This document shows positions 18,678 to 63,842 of a stretch of DNA of 64,000 nt, piece after piece; position 1 is the first letter of the stretch; every line of letters begins with the position of its first letter. The notes under the pieces are model-generated. The model worked only from the letters and a program-made list of their open reading frames with translations. It was not told the origin of the DNA and searched no databases. The position numbers and the translations under genes were made by a program. This DNA comes from Desulforamulus reducens MI-1 (GTDB lineage Bacteria > Bacillota > Desulfotomaculia > Desulfotomaculales > Desulfotomaculaceae): positions 1,088,332-1,152,331 of the forward strand of contig NC_009253.1 in the NCBI RefSeq assembly GCF_000016165.1. Reading direction: 5' to 3'.

Positions 18678-18734
18678 GAATTATAATACGTACTAACATA
18701 GTACAATAGAATCCTTTATAGTTTAATGTAATAA

Positions 18735-18816
18735 AATTAAAAGGCAAACTTTCCGAAAGGAAAGGACGCAAAGCCACGGGCCTAAGGACATTGTCTATGG
18801 TAGCCGGGCCGCCTTA
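18735..18816 (+). promoter_or_regulatory. Cyclic di-GMP-I (GEMM) riboswitch
   Basis: The sequence carries the class I core in order: AAGGCAAAC, a GNRA-capped hairpin TTTCCGAAAGGAAA, GGACGCAAAGCC, then GGGCCTAAGG, and GGTAGCCGGGCCGCC. These match the ligand-binding, tetraloop and tetraloop-receptor parts of the family. It is followed directly by a terminator hairpin and then pilB of the second pilus locus. CCTTAGG at its 3' edge can pair with CCTAAG at 18831-18836, giving an alternative to the terminator. A TATAAT at 18682-18687, just past the IS end, is a possible -10 box. Whether ligand turns expression on or off cannot be read with certainty. Confidence 0.93.
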
Positions 18817-18820
18817 GGAA

Positions 18821-18863
18821 GATCCAAAGCCCTAAGTTTTCAAACTTGTGTTTTGGATTTTTT
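18821..18863 (+). terminator. Riboswitch expression-platform terminator
   Basis: ATCCAAA (18822-18828) pairs with TTTGGAT (18852-18858), enclosing a second stem AAGTTT/AAACTT (18834-18847), followed by a T6 run (18858-18863). Position between aptamer and pilB makes it the likely regulated terminator. Confidence 0.8.
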
Positions 18864-18899
18864 GCATTTAATAATAAGTTTTATAGTAGGGGATTTGTT

Positions 18900-20576
18900 A
18901 TGAAATTTACCCGTGGTTTTTTAGGTACCTGGTTAGTAAATGAAGGTATTATTAGCCAGAAACAGTTGGAAGATGCCCTGGAATATCAAAGACAGCACCC
19001 GGGGAAAACCGGTGTTCTGGGTAAAACCCTGGTACAGTTGGGGTTTTGTTCAGAGGACGATATAGCCAGAATCATTGCCAAGCAGGCGGGGGTTCCCTTT
19101 GTGTCACTGGAAAACCATACCATAGACCCTGCAGCTATTACTGCCGTGTCTGTAGATGTTATGAAGCGCTATAAAGCCCTGCCCCTGGGTTTTAGTGAAG
19201 GAAAGCTGATGGTGGCAATGCAAAAACCTACGGATATTGTAGCCATCGATAATTTACGTGTCTTAACAGGCTTTGACATTAAGCCAGTGTTTTCTCCCGA
19301 TAGTGAATTGGACGTTGCCATTGAAAAATATAGCAGAGAAGCAATGGAATTTAACAAGGTTGAAGAAGAAACACCACAAATTGAAGAAATTACAGCAAAT
19401 ATAGATGACGACCAGAAACCGGCTGTCCAGTTAGCCAACATGATCTTATCCCAGGCTGTAGCCGCCAAGGCCAGTGACGTTCATATTGAGAGATATGAAC
19501 AACGCATGAGGGTACGCTTTAGAATTGATGGTGTATTGCATGATATTATGGAGCCGCCGGTAAAGATGCATGCCTCCCTGGTATCTCGCATCAAGGTTAT
19601 GGCTAATATGGATATAGCCGACCGCAGGATACCCCAGGACGGACGTATATCCCTGAAAATTGAAGGGAGACCCATTGATATTCGTGTGGCTACCTTACCC
19701 ACCAGTTATGGTGAAAGGTTAACCATGCGCCTGTTGGATAACTCAGCCAGAATGATTACCCTGGAAGAACTTGGTGTAGCACCCAAAATTCTTGAAAGAT
19801 ACCGTGAGATTGTTCAATTACCCTACGGTTTCATACTGGTAACCGGGCCCACCGGCAGTGGCAAAAGTACCACCCTATATGCCAGCCTAAACGCTGTGGA
19901 TTGGGTCGGTAAGAATGTTATTACCATTGAAGACCCTGTGGAATACCGGATGGAAGGCGTAAACCAGATTCAGATTAATCCCCAGGCAGGTCTTACCTTT
20001 GCCTCAGGTCTTCGCTCCATCCTGCGCAGTGACCCGGATATTATCATGGTGGGTGAGATTCGTGATCAAGAAACTGCAAAAATTGCCATAGAATCGGCCA
20101 TGACTGGACATATGGTCTTTGCTACCCTACATACCAATGATGCCCCTGGGGCCATCAGCCGTTTAACCGAAATGGGAATAGAACCCTTTCTTACTGCTTC
20201 ATCTTTAGTATGTGTTTTAGCCCAGCGCTTGGCCCGGGTCCTTTGCCCCCATTGTAAGGAAGCCATTCAGTTAACCAGAAGGGATTTGGCAAAGGTGCCG
20301 GACTTCCCCTTTGCAGAAGGAGAGGACGTGGTTACCCTATATAAGCCCAAAGGCTGTATGCGTTGCAGCAATACCGGCTTTCGAGGCAGGGTAGGAATCT
20401 ACGAACTATTATTTGTTACAGAGAAAATTCAACGCCTGGCCCTGGAGAAGGCCTCGGCCAAAGAAATAACAAGTGCCGCCCTAGAAGAGGGCATGGTTGT
20501 TCTCCGGCAGGATGGTTTGTTAAAGGTAAAACAAGGTATCACTTCGCTGGAAGAAGTATTGAGGGTGGTTGTTTAA
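18900..20576 (+). CDS. pilB: Type IV pilus assembly ATPase PilB (locus 2)
   Basis: A 558-aa assembly motor. The N-terminal MshEN domain (about 5-145) is a known cyclic-di-GMP binding fold in some homologues. Walker A GPTGSGKSTT starts at residue 316, Walker B is in DPDIIMVGEIRD, and zinc-type CPHC and CMRC pairs are near 445 and 483. ATG 18900 has TAGGGGAT upstream, and an earlier in-frame start would fall inside the terminator. First gene of the riboswitch-controlled operon; its stop is 1 nt from pilT. Confidence 0.95.
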   Translation: MKFTRGFLGTWLVNEGIISQKQLEDALEYQRQHPGKTGVLGKTLVQLGFCSEDDIARIIAKQAGVPFVSLENHTIDPAAITAVSVDVMKRYKALPLGFSEGKLMVAMQKPTDIVAIDNLRVLTGFDIKPVFSPDSELDVAIEKYSREAMEFNKVEEETPQIEEITANIDDDQKPAVQLANMILSQAVAAKASDVHIERYEQRMRVRFRIDGVLHDIMEPPVKMHASLVSRIKVMANMDIADRRIPQDGRISLKIEGRPIDIRVATLPTSYGERLTMRLLDNSARMITLEELGVAPKILERYREIVQLPYGFILVTGPTGSGKSTTLYASLNAVDWVGKNVITIEDPVEYRMEGVNQIQINPQAGLTFASGLRSILRSDPDIIMVGEIRDQETAKIAIESAMTGHMVFATLHTNDAPGAISRLTEMGIEPFLTASSLVCVLAQRLARVLCPHCKEAIQLTRRDLAKVPDFPFAEGEDVVTLYKPKGCMRCSNTGFRGRVGIYELLFVTEKIQRLALEKASAKEITSAALEEGMVVLRQDGLLKVKQGITSLEEVLRVVV

Positions 20577-58069: not shown

Positions 58070-58315
58070 ATGAAAGCGGAAAAGAAAACCTTTGAGGAGG
58101 CCCTAGCTCGGTTGGAACAAGTTGTTAGGGAATTGGAATTAACGCAACTTCCCTTGGACCAGGCATTAGAGTTATTCGCAGAAGGAATTACATTATCGAA
58201 GTATTGCAACAGTTGCCTAGAACAGGCAGAACAAAAAATAAGCATGCTGATGGCAGATGGCGAATTAAAAGATATACCTGGGGCACTGTCAGGAGGTAGT
58301 TCCCGTGAACTTTAA
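58070..58315 (+). CDS. xseB: Exodeoxyribonuclease VII small subunit
   Basis: 81 aa. [17 protein letters not shown] and [31 protein letters not shown] are the standard XseB helices. It overlaps ispA by 11 nt. Confidence 0.94.
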
Positions 58316-59189
58316 GGAAGAATTAAAGCAATGGTCCCAAAAAGTGGATGAAGCGTTGGACCGATATATACCGTCTTCCGATGCTTATCCCTCGGTCATT
58401 CATGAAGCCATGCGTTACAGTATTTTTGCAGGGGGTAAAAGGTTAAGACCCATCCTGGTGCTGGCGGCGACCCAAGCTGTGGGCGGCAATACTGAAAAGG
58501 TAATGCCCGTGGCCTGTGCCATGGAACTGATCCATACCTACTCACTTGTCCATGATGACCTACCTGCTATGGATAATGACGATTTTCGGCGGGGCCGTCC
58601 TACAAATCATAAGGTATATGGGGAAGCCATGGCTATTCTGGTGGGAGATGCTTTACAAACTTTAGCCTTTGAACTGATTGCCCAGACAACGGAAAGTTTT
58701 GAAGCTGATAGGGTTAATCAGGTTACTTTAGAAATTGCCAAGGCAGCGGGTTCCAGTGGGTTAATTGGTGGTCAAGTGGTGGACATCTTATCTGAGAATA
58801 GGGATATAGATGGAGACACCTTGGAATACATCCACCGACACAAAACCGGTGCCCTGTTTAGAGCCTCCATACGTGCAGGAGCTATTCTCGGAGGGGCCAC
58901 AGTCAATCAATTGGCAGCCTTAACCCTATACGCAGAGCAAATGGGTCTTGCCTTTCAGATCAAGGATGATTTGTTGGATATAGAGGGTGATGAGGCAAAA
59001 ATTGGTAAACCGGTGGGTAGTGATATTAAAAATCAAAAATCTACTTATCCATCTATCTATGGAATAGAAGAAGCGAAGAGAATGGCTACGGAGGCCGCCG
59101 CAGAAGCGGTAAATGCGATAAAAATTTTTAATCATAAAGCGGAATTTTTACAAGACATCATGCATTTTATTATCAATAGGGATCATTAA
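58305..59189 (+). CDS. ispA: Farnesyl/geranyl diphosphate synthase
   Basis: 294-aa prenyl transferase making farnesyl diphosphate from IPP and DMAPP. First Asp-rich motif [10 protein letters not shown], second [12 protein letters not shown], and [13 protein letters not shown] upstream. GTG 58305 lies within the end of xseB behind AGGAGG. In OLE-bearing genomes this gene commonly precedes the RNA. Confidence 0.95.
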
Positions 59190-59285: not shown

Positions 59286-59314
59286 TTGAGACGGAAGTAT
59301 TCGCATGTTATAAT
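59286..59314 (+). promoter_or_regulatory. Sigma-A promoter for OLE RNA
   Basis: TTGAGA (59286-59291), a 17-nt spacer and a perfect TATAAT (59309-59314). Predicted start near 59321. The 59,190-59,285 gap before it has no clear gene. Confidence 0.8.
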
Positions 59315-59320
59315 TCATAG

Positions 59321-59925
59321 CGTGCTAAGAATATAACTTAAAAATAAGTGATACAGTATCCTAGTCAGCATTACCTTTCTGAAGGCGGGCCTAAAAATCC
59401 GTTAAGGGCACATCGATGAAGTTCCTGGTGCTGGCTTTTGACGCCCAGTTGGGGGCTGGTACTGGGAGTTAAGGGGATGGGGCGACCTACAACGGCATGT
59501 GGGCATCGACCCCGTCCCCGTGGAGACCCAAGTGCGTGGGGAGTCGGAAACGGCAAACTATGGCTTGGCTGTTAACCTGCATGTGGTAGGAAGCTGCGTG
59601 CAGTGTAGCCTGACTTGAAGTGGTACTGGTGGATATCTCTGGTACAATATAAAATACGGGCCCGTATTTTATATTGTGGGTTGAAACCTTTGCTGCAAAA
59701 GAGTCTAAGAAAGATTAATGCTGTTGAGGAAAACTCCTAGGCTGTTCGGCACTTGCCGGGGCAGATCAGGAATTAAAGTGTGGACTAAGTGGTAATCTAG
59801 CCCTGAGAGCGGTAACGCCTCAGATAGGGTTTAATGGGAAACCGCCGGTTTGGCGACAGCCGGTACCGCTATGGGAAAACCTGCTGGACCTAAGCCACAA
59901 CATTTACCTGATCTGCTACTCACTT
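59321..59925 (+). ncRNA. ole: OLE RNA (ornate large extremophilic RNA)
   Basis: About 600 nt without a gene, between ispA and the OapA gene next to dxs, exactly the known location of OLE RNA. Conserved-looking segments include GGCGGGCCTAAAAATCC near 59383 and GCTGGACCTAAGCCACAAC near 59884, which I recall as OLE consensus parts. Structure seen directly: a perfect 17-bp palindrome arm pair (59644-59677) and a 10-bp long-range helix GCAGATCAGG (59761-59770) / CCTGATCTGC (59907-59916) enclosing the 3' domain. OLE binds OapA at the membrane and is tied to alcohol, cold and magnesium stress responses. The exact ends are estimates. Start taken from the promoter. Confidence 0.9.
59644..59677. repeat. 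Perfect 34-bp palindrome inside OLE RNA
   Basis: Both 17-nt halves are exactly complementary (arm begins ACAATATAAAATACGGG at 59644) with no spacer at the centre GGGCCC. As RNA it forms a long rod with a minimal loop. Confidence 0.95.
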
Positions 59926-59960
59926 ATCTAAAATTTACATAAAATCCGGGGTGAAATTTT

Positions 59961-60542
59961 TTGGGAAACCATAAATCCAATGTTTCCACTCGTTACTTGT
60001 TTTTGGTGTCAATTGGATCTTTTTTACTGGCAATTATTTTTTCATTGTTGTCGGAAACCATGACGCGGGTTGTAAAAAGTGTTATTATATCCTTGTCTGG
60101 TTTGTTGTTTATTATACTAATCGGTATTCTTGCAGATATTATTGGAACAGCAGCCACTGCTGCTCAGGAGGCACCTTTTCATGCCAAAGCCGCCAAACGT
60201 GTTCGCGGGGCAAAAGAGGGTGTTTTTTTGTTACGTAATGCAGATAAAGTTGCAAATATTTGCAATGACGTTATAGGAGATATTGTGGGTACTGTCAGTG
60301 GTGCTTTAGGGATATCAATTGTGGTTAAAATAGTAAAGAGTAATCCGGGACTCGACGCCTTTTGGGCCAATATTGTAATGACGGCACTGATTGCCTCGAT
60401 CACGATTTCCGGCAAAGCTTTAGGAAAAGTACTAGCCTTAACAAGGGCAAATGATGTAATATTTTTTGTAGGTAAGATATTGGCTTATTGGGAGAAACTT
60501 ATTGGTAAAAAGCCAGTAAGAAAAAAGAACCCGAGGTCTTAA
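59961..60542 (+). CDS. oapA: OLE-associated protein OapA
   Basis: 193-aa membrane protein with hydrophobic segments at about 9-32, 38-60 and 125-150, a basic loop between (AKAAKRVRGAKEGVFLLRNADKVANICNDVIGDIVG), and a basic C-terminus (KKPVRKKNPRS). OapA binds OLE RNA at the membrane as a dimer; its fold is related to DUF21 of CNNM-type magnesium transporters. TTG 59961 follows GGGGTGA. It sits 35 nt after OLE and 6 nt before dxs. Confidence 0.88.
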   Translation: MGNHKSNVSTRYLFLVSIGSFLLAIIFSLLSETMTRVVKSVIISLSGLLFIILIGILADIIGTAATAAQEAPFHAKAAKRVRGAKEGVFLLRNADKVANICNDVIGDIVGTVSGALGISIVVKIVKSNPGLDAFWANIVMTALIASITISGKALGKVLALTRANDVIFFVGKILAYWEKLIGKKPVRKKNPRS

Positions 60543-60548
60543 AAGAGG

Positions 60549-62456
60549 GTGGAGCATATTACCTCAATATTAAAAAACATTGCTAGTCCAAAGGATCTAA
60601 AAAATTTAAGTTTAAAACAATTGCAAAGTTTAGCTTTAGAAATTAGGGAAACTATTATTAAAACTGTATCCAAAACGGGCGGTCATCTCGCCCCGAACCT
60701 GGGAGTTGTAGAACTGACCATTGCTTTACACTGTGTTTTTGATACTTCTGTAGATCGTATTATTTGGGATGTAGGACACCAAAGCTATGTTCATAAGCTG
60801 CTTACCGGACGACTGGCGCAGTTTTCGACCCTGCGACAGTATGGAGGCCTCAGTGGGTTTCCCAAACCCGAAGAAAGCATTCATGACGCCTTTGCCACAG
60901 GGCATAGTAGTACATCTATCTCCGCAGCCCTGGGAATGGCGTTAACTCGAGATTTAAAAGGCGAGAAGCATTCTGTTGTAGCGGTTATAGGTGATGGTTC
61001 TCTGACAGGTGGTATGGCCTTTGAGGCTCTGAATTATGCTGGTCACCTGAAGACCAATATGATTGTGGTTTTAAATGATAATGAAATGTCCATTGCACCC
61101 AATGTAGGTGCTTTATCCGGTTACTTGAGCCGATTAAGGACGGACCCTAAATATTCTAAGGGTAAGGATGAGATTGCGGATCTGTTACAAAAAATTCCCC
61201 ATGGTCCCAAACTTCTTAAAGTGGTGGATCGGTTAAAAGATAGTGTAAAATACCTAGTGGTACCGGGGATGCTGTTTGAAGAACTAGGTTTTACCTACTT
61301 GGGTCCGGTGGATGGTCATGATACCAAGGCTGTGTTGACCATGTTGCAGCAGGCTAAGGCTGTCAGTGGCCCTGTTTTAGTACATGTTATAACCAAGAAA
61401 GGAAAAGGTTATCTTCCGGCGGAACAAAATCCGGACCGTTATCATGGAGTTGGTCCCTTCGACCTAGAAACCGGTACGGTGGTGAAATCCCAGGGACCAC
61501 CTAGCTATACAGAAGTCTTTGGTGAAACCATTGTTAAATTAGCCAAAGAAGATGATCGAATTATTGGTATTACTGCAGCCATGCCTAGTGGGACAGGCCT
61601 GAATTCCTTTGCTAAAGAGTTTCCCAAAAGGTATTTTGATGTAGGTATTGCAGAGCAGCATGCCGTAACTATGGCCGCAGGAATGGCAGCAACAGGTTAC
61701 CGCCCCATAGCTGCTATCTATTCAACTTTTTTGCAAAGGGCCTATGATCAGGTTTTACATGATGTATGCATGCAAAATTTACCAGTTACCTTTGCCCTGG
61801 ATCGAGGCGGACTGGTGGGAGACGACGGACCTACGCACCATGGTGTTTTTGATATATCCTTTTTAAGAAACATCCCTAACCTAGTTATGATGTCGCCAAA
61901 GGATGAAAATGAGTTACAACATATGTTGAAGACGGCAGTAACCTATAACGGACCCGTGGCAATCAGATACCCCAGGGGTAATGGCATTGGGATTTCCATG
62001 GATGAAAAACTTCAATGTTTGCCCATAGGGAAAGGCGAAGTGATAAGAGAGGGAAACGATGTTCTGCTACTTGCCATCGGCAACATGGTACAGGAAGCAC
62101 TCAAGGCTGCTGAGAGTTTAAGTGCCCAAGGCATTGAGGCTACTGTAATCAATGCCCGATATACAAAACCATTGGATGAAGAGCTTATCTTAAACTATGC
62201 TGGCAGAATTAAGAACATCGTAACCATTGAGGAGCACGTACTGGCAGGGGGCTTTGGTAGTTCGATTCTTGAACTGTTTGAATCCTCTGGCCTGACCGAT
62301 GTAAAGATGAAACGGCTGGGTTTGCCTGATGAATTTATTGAACATGGAACACAAAATCAATTAAGAGCTCAATACGGGTTAACTTCGGCAGGGATTGTCG
62401 ATACTGTTTTAAATCATCATATCCATAAAAATAGAACCCGTAAAGAATTTTTGTAA
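60549..62456 (+). CDS. dxs: 1-deoxy-D-xylulose-5-phosphate synthase
   Basis: 635-aa thiamine-diphosphate enzyme, first step of the MEP isoprenoid pathway (pyruvate plus glyceraldehyde 3-phosphate). [18 protein letters not shown], ThDP motif [15 protein letters not shown]...NDNEMSI, catalytic [19 protein letters not shown], and [18 protein letters not shown] 60549 start with AAAAGAGG upstream. Confidence 0.96.
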
Positions 62457-62481: not shown

Positions 62482-63288
62482 TTGGCTGTTACCAAAGAAC
62501 GTTTAGATGTCTATCTCGTAAACAATGGTTTTTTTCCCAGTCGGGAAAAGGCCCGTGCCGCGGTGATGGCAGGGCTTGTTTTTGTTGATGGCGAACGGGT
62601 GGATAAGCCCGGACACCAGGTGAAAGCAGAGGTTTCTATACAAGTACAGGGCAAGACACTGCCCTTTGTTAGCCGTGGTGGCCTTAAGCTGGAAAAGGCC
62701 ATGAAAGAGTTTGATATTGATTTAAAAGATCGGGTGGTCATCGATATTGGGGCATCCACCGGTGGTTTTACTGATTGTGCCTTGCAAAATGGAGCTAGGT
62801 TGGTCTACGCCGTTGATGTAGGCTATGGACAGTTAGCCTGGAAACTTAGATCTGATCCAAGGGTTATCAGTATGGAGCGGACCAATATTCGGTACTTGGA
62901 GCCCGAAGCATTGACGGAACGCCCCAGCTTTGCCACCGTCGATGTTTCCTTTATTTCGCTGGCCCTAGTTTTGCCTAGGGTAGATCTTCTGACTGAATTG
63001 GTGGCGGAAGGGATTGCTTTAATTAAACCCCAATTTGAGGCCGGCAGAGAACGGGTTGGCAAAAAGGGTGTAGTGCGTGATCCTGAAGTGCATATAGAGG
63101 TGATCGAGAAGGTCCTGGGAGTTGTGCACAATCTGGGATGGCAGGCGGTTGGACTTGCTTTTTCGCCTGTACGGGGTCCAGAAGGTAATATTGAATATTT
63201 ACTGTACTTTACAAAGGGTCAGCAGGAAAGAGGAACTGCGCCCAATATTCGGGAGACTGTCTACAGTGCCCACACTACCCTTGAGTAA
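62482..63288 (+). CDS. tlyA: TlyA-family rRNA methyltransferase
   Basis: 268 aa. N-terminal S4 RNA-binding domain (RLDVYLVNNGFFPSREKARAAVMAGLVFVDG) and FtsJ-like SAM domain with DIGASTGGFTDCALQNGA, VDVSFISL and KPQFEAGRE. Methylates 2'-hydroxyls of rRNA, based on mycobacterial TlyA. TTG 62482 with GGAGGAA upstream. Confidence 0.94.
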   Translation: MAVTKERLDVYLVNNGFFPSREKARAAVMAGLVFVDGERVDKPGHQVKAEVSIQVQGKTLPFVSRGGLKLEKAMKEFDIDLKDRVVIDIGASTGGFTDCALQNGARLVYAVDVGYGQLAWKLRSDPRVISMERTNIRYLEPEALTERPSFATVDVSFISLALVLPRVDLLTELVAEGIALIKPQFEAGRERVGKKGVVRDPEVHIEVIEKVLGVVHNLGWQAVGLAFSPVRGPEGNIEYLLYFTKGQQERGTAPNIRETVYSAHTTLE

Positions 63289-63314: not shown

Positions 63315-63842
63315 TTGCTTCCTGGTGACCTTCTTATTATCGGCATTATCCTAGGCGTTCTAATTAGCTATTATCTATTTAAAAAGGGACAATCCTATCT
63401 TGCAAAAAAACGAGTATTGAAGGCAGGCAGAGCAGAGATTGCTGCCAGAAGATTTTTGGAATCCGAGGGGTATACTGTACTGGCAGTGCAGGAAAGGGTG
63501 CCCATTATCACAAAAGTGAATGGCAAACCCCATAAGAGCCATATCAAAGCGGATTTAATTGTACAAAAGGGAAAAGAAATTTTTGTGGTGGATGTAAAAA
63601 CCGGTGAAGTTGCACAGAAACCGGCTTCGCCGGATAATCGAAGACAATTATTGGAGTACTTTTTAGTCTACCGTCCTAACGGGGTTTTAGTTTTGGATAT
63701 GGATAACAAGAAATTATACAGGTTGGAGTTTGAAATTGATTTTCCATCCCCGAAAGGAATGAACATTATTCCCTACATTTTATCCTTTTGTGCCGGTGCA
63801 TTGTTAACCTATCTTCTATTTAAAGGGGGATCTATCCGTTGA
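63315..63842 (+). CDS. Membrane-anchored PD-(D/E)XK nuclease-like protein
   Basis: 175 aa. An N-terminal membrane helix (LLIIGIILGVLISYYLF), a core with AARRFLESEGYTVLAVQE, KADLIVQKGKEIFVVDVKTGE (Asp ... DVK, the pattern of PD-(D/E)XK nucleases), and QLLEYFLVYRPNGVLVLD. A second membrane helix lies at the C-terminus (IIPYILSFCAGALLTYLLF). The fold assignment is from the motif only; substrate unknown. It starts at TTG 63315 and overlaps nadK by 4 nt. Confidence 0.65.
   Translation: MLPGDLLIIGIILGVLISYYLFKKGQSYLAKKRVLKAGRAEIAARRFLESEGYTVLAVQERVPIITKVNGKPHKSHIKADLIVQKGKEIFVVDVKTGEVAQKPASPDNRRQLLEYFLVYRPNGVLVLDMDNKKLYRLEFEIDFPSPKGMNIIPYILSFCAGALLTYLLFKGGSIR

Follow-up and report, generated by a model that had tools for sequence, protein, structure and literature searches.

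The 64,000-nt stretch of Desulforamulus reducens MI-1 analyzed here (the window; contig NC_009253.1, positions 1,088,332 to 1,152,331) carries an ordinary and apparently complete locus of the already described OLE RNA family. The identity of the locus, its promoter and its partner assignment as an OLE ribonucleoprotein locus are proposed with high confidence. What is added to the known family is the conservation of the promoter and a putative stand-alone OLE lineage in relatives. Few structured bacterial RNAs that lack a known biochemical activity are as large as OLE, and a clean and complete locus in an anaerobic sulfate-reducer, whose genome is one contig of 3,608,104 bases, is therefore usable as a second system. 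The features of the locus, in window coordinates, are the following.

58305–59189, plus strand: ispA (farnesyl diphosphate synthase), the upstream neighbor; NCBIfam NF045485 (399.7 bits), Pfam PF00348
59286–59291, plus strand: putative −35 element TTGAGA; TTG at the same spacing is conserved in relatives (scan)
59306–59314, plus strand: putative extended −10 element TGT-TATAAT, conserved in relatives
59332–59939 (model span), plus strand: OLE RNA, RF01071; predicted transcript start near 59321
59344–59351 (5′ arm) and 59920–59927 (3′ arm), plus strand: terminal helix, covarying
59354–59364, plus strand: 5′ arm of a conserved helix (CAGU and CUAG), with partners at 59741–59744 and 59737–59740
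59393–59397, plus strand: loop L4, AAAAA (bridge B1 in cryo-EM dimers), conserved
59415–59470, plus strand: J4a/5 and P5 region with loop GCCCAG, conserved in relatives; OapC site by homology
59644–59677, plus strand: P9.3, a perfect 15-bp hairpin with the self-complementary GGGCCC at 59658–59663
59760–59770 (5′ arm) and 59907–59917 (3′ arm), plus strand: long-range helix closing the 3′ domain, with covariation
59779–59783/59895–59899 and 59796–59801/59883–59888, plus strand: two further long-range helices, their 5′ arms within 59779–59801
59948–59953, plus strand: GGGGTG, likely ribosome-binding site of oapA, 7 nt upstream of the TTG start
59961–60542, plus strand: oapA, predicted 193-aa membrane protein with DxxxD (D103–D107), TTG start; orthologues adjoin OLE in relatives
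60549–62456, plus strand: dxs, the downstream neighbor; TIGR00204 (914.8 bits)
62482–63288: tlyA, downstream of dxs

The first-pass annotation, made from the letters alone, had assigned the gap between ispA and dxs to OLE RNA. The Rfam covariance model bears this out: 59332–59939 on the plus strand is a full-length match to RF01071 (616 of 616 positions), with 529.7 bits (E 3.5e-153) against a gathering score of 50. Lack of a significant OLE hit had been named as grounds to refute the assignment, and the match far exceeds that threshold. Both flanking genes that it had named are supported by Pfam or NCBIfam. The genes from xseA to tlyA are closely spaced and all co-directional. The predicted RNA (59321–59960) folds 6.9 s.d. 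below shuffled sequence (20 shuffles). In the scan of the 64-kb window with covariance models, only two RNAs were found, OLE and a c-di-GMP-I riboswitch. The riboswitch (83.9 bits) is located at 18733–18816, just 5′ of an ORF of 576 aa (18846–20576) that resembles a GspE/PilB-type ATPase. A 175-aa protein is encoded at 63315–63842, and has a weak match to Cas4-like nucleases (20.2 bits against a cut-off of 65).

Secondary structure was evaluated by mapping the Rfam structure onto 44 OLE RNAs of the window genome and its relatives, aligned with MAFFT. For the 155 model pairs, 88.3% of cells are paired, and two-sided changes are seen in 92 pairs. When the partner is slid, the paired cells drop to 36.9–43.1%. 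The long-range helix 59761–59770/59907–59916, noticed by eye beforehand, is an exact reverse complement and covaries across the 44 RNAs. The full helix has 11 pairs (59760–59770/59907–59917); 96.2% of its cells are paired, and 10 of the 11 pairs show two-sided changes; only 30–44% are paired with the partner slid by 1–2 nt. In the two further long-range helices, 99.5% (59779–59783/59895–59899) and 99.2% (59796–59801/59883–59888) of cells are paired. For the terminal helix, which the Rfam structure line leaves unpaired, 332 of 352 cells of the 44 sequences show pairing, with exchanges between U-A and C-G and between A-U and C-G. The helix starting with the arm 59354–59364 is paired in all 44 sequences; it is nearly invariant and therefore shows little covariation.

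Upstream of the RNA, TTGAGA and TATAAT (59309–59314) are separated by a 17-nt spacer. Together they contain 11 of 12 consensus bases, in addition to the upstream TG. This promoter, which had been read as TTGAGA-17-TATAAT, is exact in the sequence, and its architecture is conserved in related OLE genes. The comparison covered the OLE gene of the window and another 29 from its relatives; these 30 genes are related and not independent of one another. TATAAT is present within 60 nt upstream of the OLE model start in 28 of them, with TGn preceding the −10 element in 27, and all 28 have a TTG-type −35 element at a spacing of 16–18 nt. One more gene contains the full pattern 74 nt upstream. Among 4846 control stretches from other parts of these loci, none has the full pattern. 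Spacer sequences vary from genus to genus. Such a conserved pattern with variable spacers makes it very likely that OLE is driven by its own, dedicated extended −10 promoter. A transcript start near 59321, 7 nt past the −10 element, is plausible from its position. No description of an OLE promoter was found in the literature searched, which did not include the original OLE papers of 2006–2012. The conserved promoter narrows the position of the 5′ end of OLE, which is useful for the whole family. At the other end, no terminator was found by the sequence scan between OLE and oapA. Based on this, transcription is likely to read through, and the 3′ end of OLE is probably made by processing.

In cryo-EM, two OLE RNAs are joined into a dimer through an A-A bridge of L4, contacts of L5-L7, and a kissing loop of L9.3; L4 forms the intermolecular bridge B1 and L9.3 the bridge B3 (PMC12286853). 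In Halalkalibacterium halodurans, the k-turn bound by OapC was mapped to the J4a/5-P5 region (PMC9723947). The window OLE retains the A-run of L4, the L5 loop GCCCAG and the GGGCCC of P9.3. Among relatives, L4 reads CUAAAAAUC in 42 of the 44 OLE RNAs, and GGGCCC is found in the P9.3 region of 33 of 34 oapA-linked OLE RNAs. Since these features of L4, L5 and P9.3 are retained, the window OLE is expected, by analogy, to dimerize and to assemble into a particle as other OLE RNAs do.

The anti-Shine-Dalgarno mimic is a different case. CCUCC(U) in P6 has been tied to the binding of bS21 by H. halodurans OLE (PMC12054373). CCUCC is absent from the P6 strand of the window (59472–59522), which reads CCCCGUCCCC in place of the CCUCCU of H. 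halodurans, and it is present in only five of the 44 OLE RNAs. Binding of bS21 is an optional trait among OLE RNAs and does not define the family. Because the mimic is not retained, bS21 binding is not to be assumed here. A bS21 homologue is encoded in the same genome. CCUCC does occur in two congeners (L021 and L030).

The partner gene oapA had been placed 3′ of OLE, and a 193-aa ORF with a TTG start is indeed there (59961–60542). Its product, with +14 net charge, contains four distinct hydrophobic regions. D103 and D107 of the DxxxD motif are invariant in 17 orthologues, and the closest relatives belong to named Desulforamulus species. No Pfam or NCBIfam model matches the protein; because of this, it may be annotated as hypothetical. 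No sequence relatives were found in the PDB. The structure was modeled by AlphaFold2 from 17 sequences with moderate confidence (mean pLDDT 66.4). Where four transmembrane helices are expected of an OapA, hydropathy peaks are located at residues 13–31, 40–58, 104–122 and 131–149, and the model shows five long helices at moderate confidence. The first four fold matches of the model are all CNNM/CorC proteins with Z 11.4–12.2, including 7m1t (Z 12.2, rmsd 2.7 over 125 residues) and 7cff (Z 11.5), and the next match has Z 8.5. In Foldseek, no match to the model passes E 0.001, the best being 0.15. The predicted fold of OapA is thus closest to the membrane domains of CNNM/CorC Mg2+ transporters. 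A relation of OapA to CNNM domains has been reported (PMC11332333), and the model of the window protein agrees. For CNNM proteins of the MpfA type, an anticorrelation with OLE has been reported (PMC11332333). Besides OLE and OapA, the D. reducens genome also encodes a CNNM-domain protein of 449 aa (L034, C1:1717377–1717958).

Homologues of the other two partners are encoded elsewhere in the genome. The OapB homologue is found between map and infA and matches the solved OapB structure 7k9b (E 3.6e-13). The OapC homologue, between rpoC and rpsL, matches the YbxF-type protein 3v7e (E 4.7e-12) and also 4lck. OapB and OapC are common in genomes with OLE, and not universal. A search for OapB by the KOW domain (PF00467) gave rplX, a 182-aa frame taken for nusG, and weak matches, and was set aside. 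What looked like a stop codon within the gene for OapC does not break it: 83 codons can be read without interruption starting at the ATG of L031:1486.

Among 120 related genomes, OLE was detected in 107 and OapA in 107; both are present in 103, and nine have neither. OLE is near-universal among these relatives. OapA was detected without OLE in four genomes (G078, G092, G102 and G107), and OLE without OapA in four (G012, G054, G061 and G070). The OLE matches of G012 and G061 sit at contig ends. In G054 (L045, 97% complete) and G070 (L048, 84% complete), the lack of a detected OapA may be due to loss or to assembly gaps.

OLE is located away from oapA in the f5 family, which consists of eight genomes (G013, G028, G038, G046, G054, G062, G070 and G077), and in G019 and G115. 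The features are as follows.

L040:3894–4489, minus strand, and L042–L049: stand-alone OLE genes, unlinked from oapA

In all seven inspected loci (G013, G038, G046, G062, G077, G019 and G115), oapA keeps its place between ispA and dxs. A search across the genomes detected no OLE at any of these seven oapA loci. Read by eye, the f5 copies are preceded by promoter-like sequence, with a TTTTACA-type −35 element and a TGnTAnAAT or similar −10 element. The model match is followed immediately by terminator-like sequence, a hairpin with a T-rich tail. In the tree, the copies of f5 and G019 constitute one clade with support 1.0, and the copy of G115 is separate as the outgroup. Unlinking of OLE and oapA may have happened more than once, as the G115 copy lies outside the main clade. 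That copy (L052:3747–4322, minus strand) is a divergent OLE that scores 402.6 bits and is not next to oapA; its genome is a more distant member of the phylum. In the nine-member clade of f5 and G019, the L5 loop GCCCAG is shortened to GCCAU or GCCAA, L6 has a changed sequence, and P9.3 no longer contains GGGCCC. Of the three dimer bridges seen by cryo-EM, B2 and B3 have thus had their loops lost or changed. The L4 A-run is retained in the clade copies inspected. One genome, G028, contains two OLEs, an oapA-linked copy (L041:3700–4313) and the stand-alone copy L040.

These facts are consistent with a second, separately evolving OLE lineage in the relatives, in which the loops of B2 and B3 were changed or lost while L4 was kept. 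We hold this tentatively, judging it nearly as likely to be right as wrong. No description of OLE unlinking with a second copy was found in the literature searched. A short P9 also marks the variant 1 RNAs already published, and the structural part may therefore be known. Were the stand-alone form functional, OLE would have split into two RNAs, which might differ in how they assemble with a shared OapA. Mixed dimers would then be possible, and the lineage would offer a natural test of which dimer contacts are needed by the particle, its members being natural variants without the loops of two of the three bridges. The lineage also argues for action of OLE in trans.

In H. halodurans, OLE constitutes a membrane-associated particle with OapA, OapB and OapC, which makes cells more tolerant of cold, alcohol and Mg2+ as well as of poor carbon sources (PMC11332333, PMC9723947, PMC10898510). 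The following scenario carries this function over to the D. reducens locus, which is known from sequence and predicted structure. The extended −10 sigma-A promoter at 59286–59314 would start the RNA near 59321, and transcription would run on through OLE into oapA and dxs. OLE of approximately 600 nt could be released by processing near its 3′ end. It would then fold and pair with a second copy via L4, L5-L7 and the GGGCCC of L9.3, as suggested by cryo-EM of other OLE RNAs, and recruit the membrane protein OapA together with OapB and OapC supplied from elsewhere in the genome. The particle would most likely act as a membrane-bound stress and metal/energy controller that tunes OapA. For this reading as transporter control, drawn by analogy, we consider the chances evenly balanced.

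If OLE had no promoter of its own, it could merely be cut from a long folD-ispA-oapA-dxs operon transcript. The tight co-directional arrangement from xseA to tlyA would fit such a transcript, and promoter-like matches are expected by chance (2.7 in the 1.5-kb region). Chance matches would hardly place the extended −10 pattern before nearly all of the 30 OLE genes and in none of the 4846 control stretches, and we regard this origin as very improbable. Even less probable is that the segment is mainly a long structured 5′ leader and not a free RNA, with riboswitch-like control of oapA and dxs in cis. The lack of a detected terminator before oapA, together with the 21 nt between the end of the model match and the start codon, is what a leader would predict. 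A leader is difficult to reconcile with the monophyletic OLE lineage that stands alone, far from an oapA still flanked by ispA and dxs, and with the OLE of H. halodurans, which works as an RNP with OapA (PMC11332333, PMC9723947).

Another reading concerns what the particle does. OLE could be a ribozyme whose main job is the catalyzed reaction, with OapA acting mainly as a membrane anchor. The large size and strong conservation of the RNA have been used as an argument for catalysis (PMC11332333), but the biochemical function of OLE is called unknown in the literature, and the predicted fold of OapA, resembling a transporter domain, would go beyond the needs of a mere anchor. We consider the ribozyme unlikely, and retain control of a transporter by the OLE particle as the working model.

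Compared with the known systems, the window RNA is similar to OLE (RF01071) in its full length, in all long-range helices, and in the ispA/oapA/dxs neighborhood, and differs from it in nothing major. One difference is the P9.3 stem, which is a perfect AT-rich 15-bp hairpin in the window. Similarly, the window protein resembles known OapA in its length of 193 aa, hydrophobic segments, DxxxD, adjacency to OLE, and CNNM-like predicted fold. It shares only 12–15% sequence identity with CNNM/CorC domains in the best matches and, unlike CNNM/CorC proteins, is too short to hold CBS domains; the DxxxD motif characterizes OapA and not CNNM (PMC11332333). The published variant 1 RNAs of OLE have short P7–P9 (PMC11332333). 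The stand-alone OLE RNAs share the short P9 with them, whereas the window OLE is full-length.
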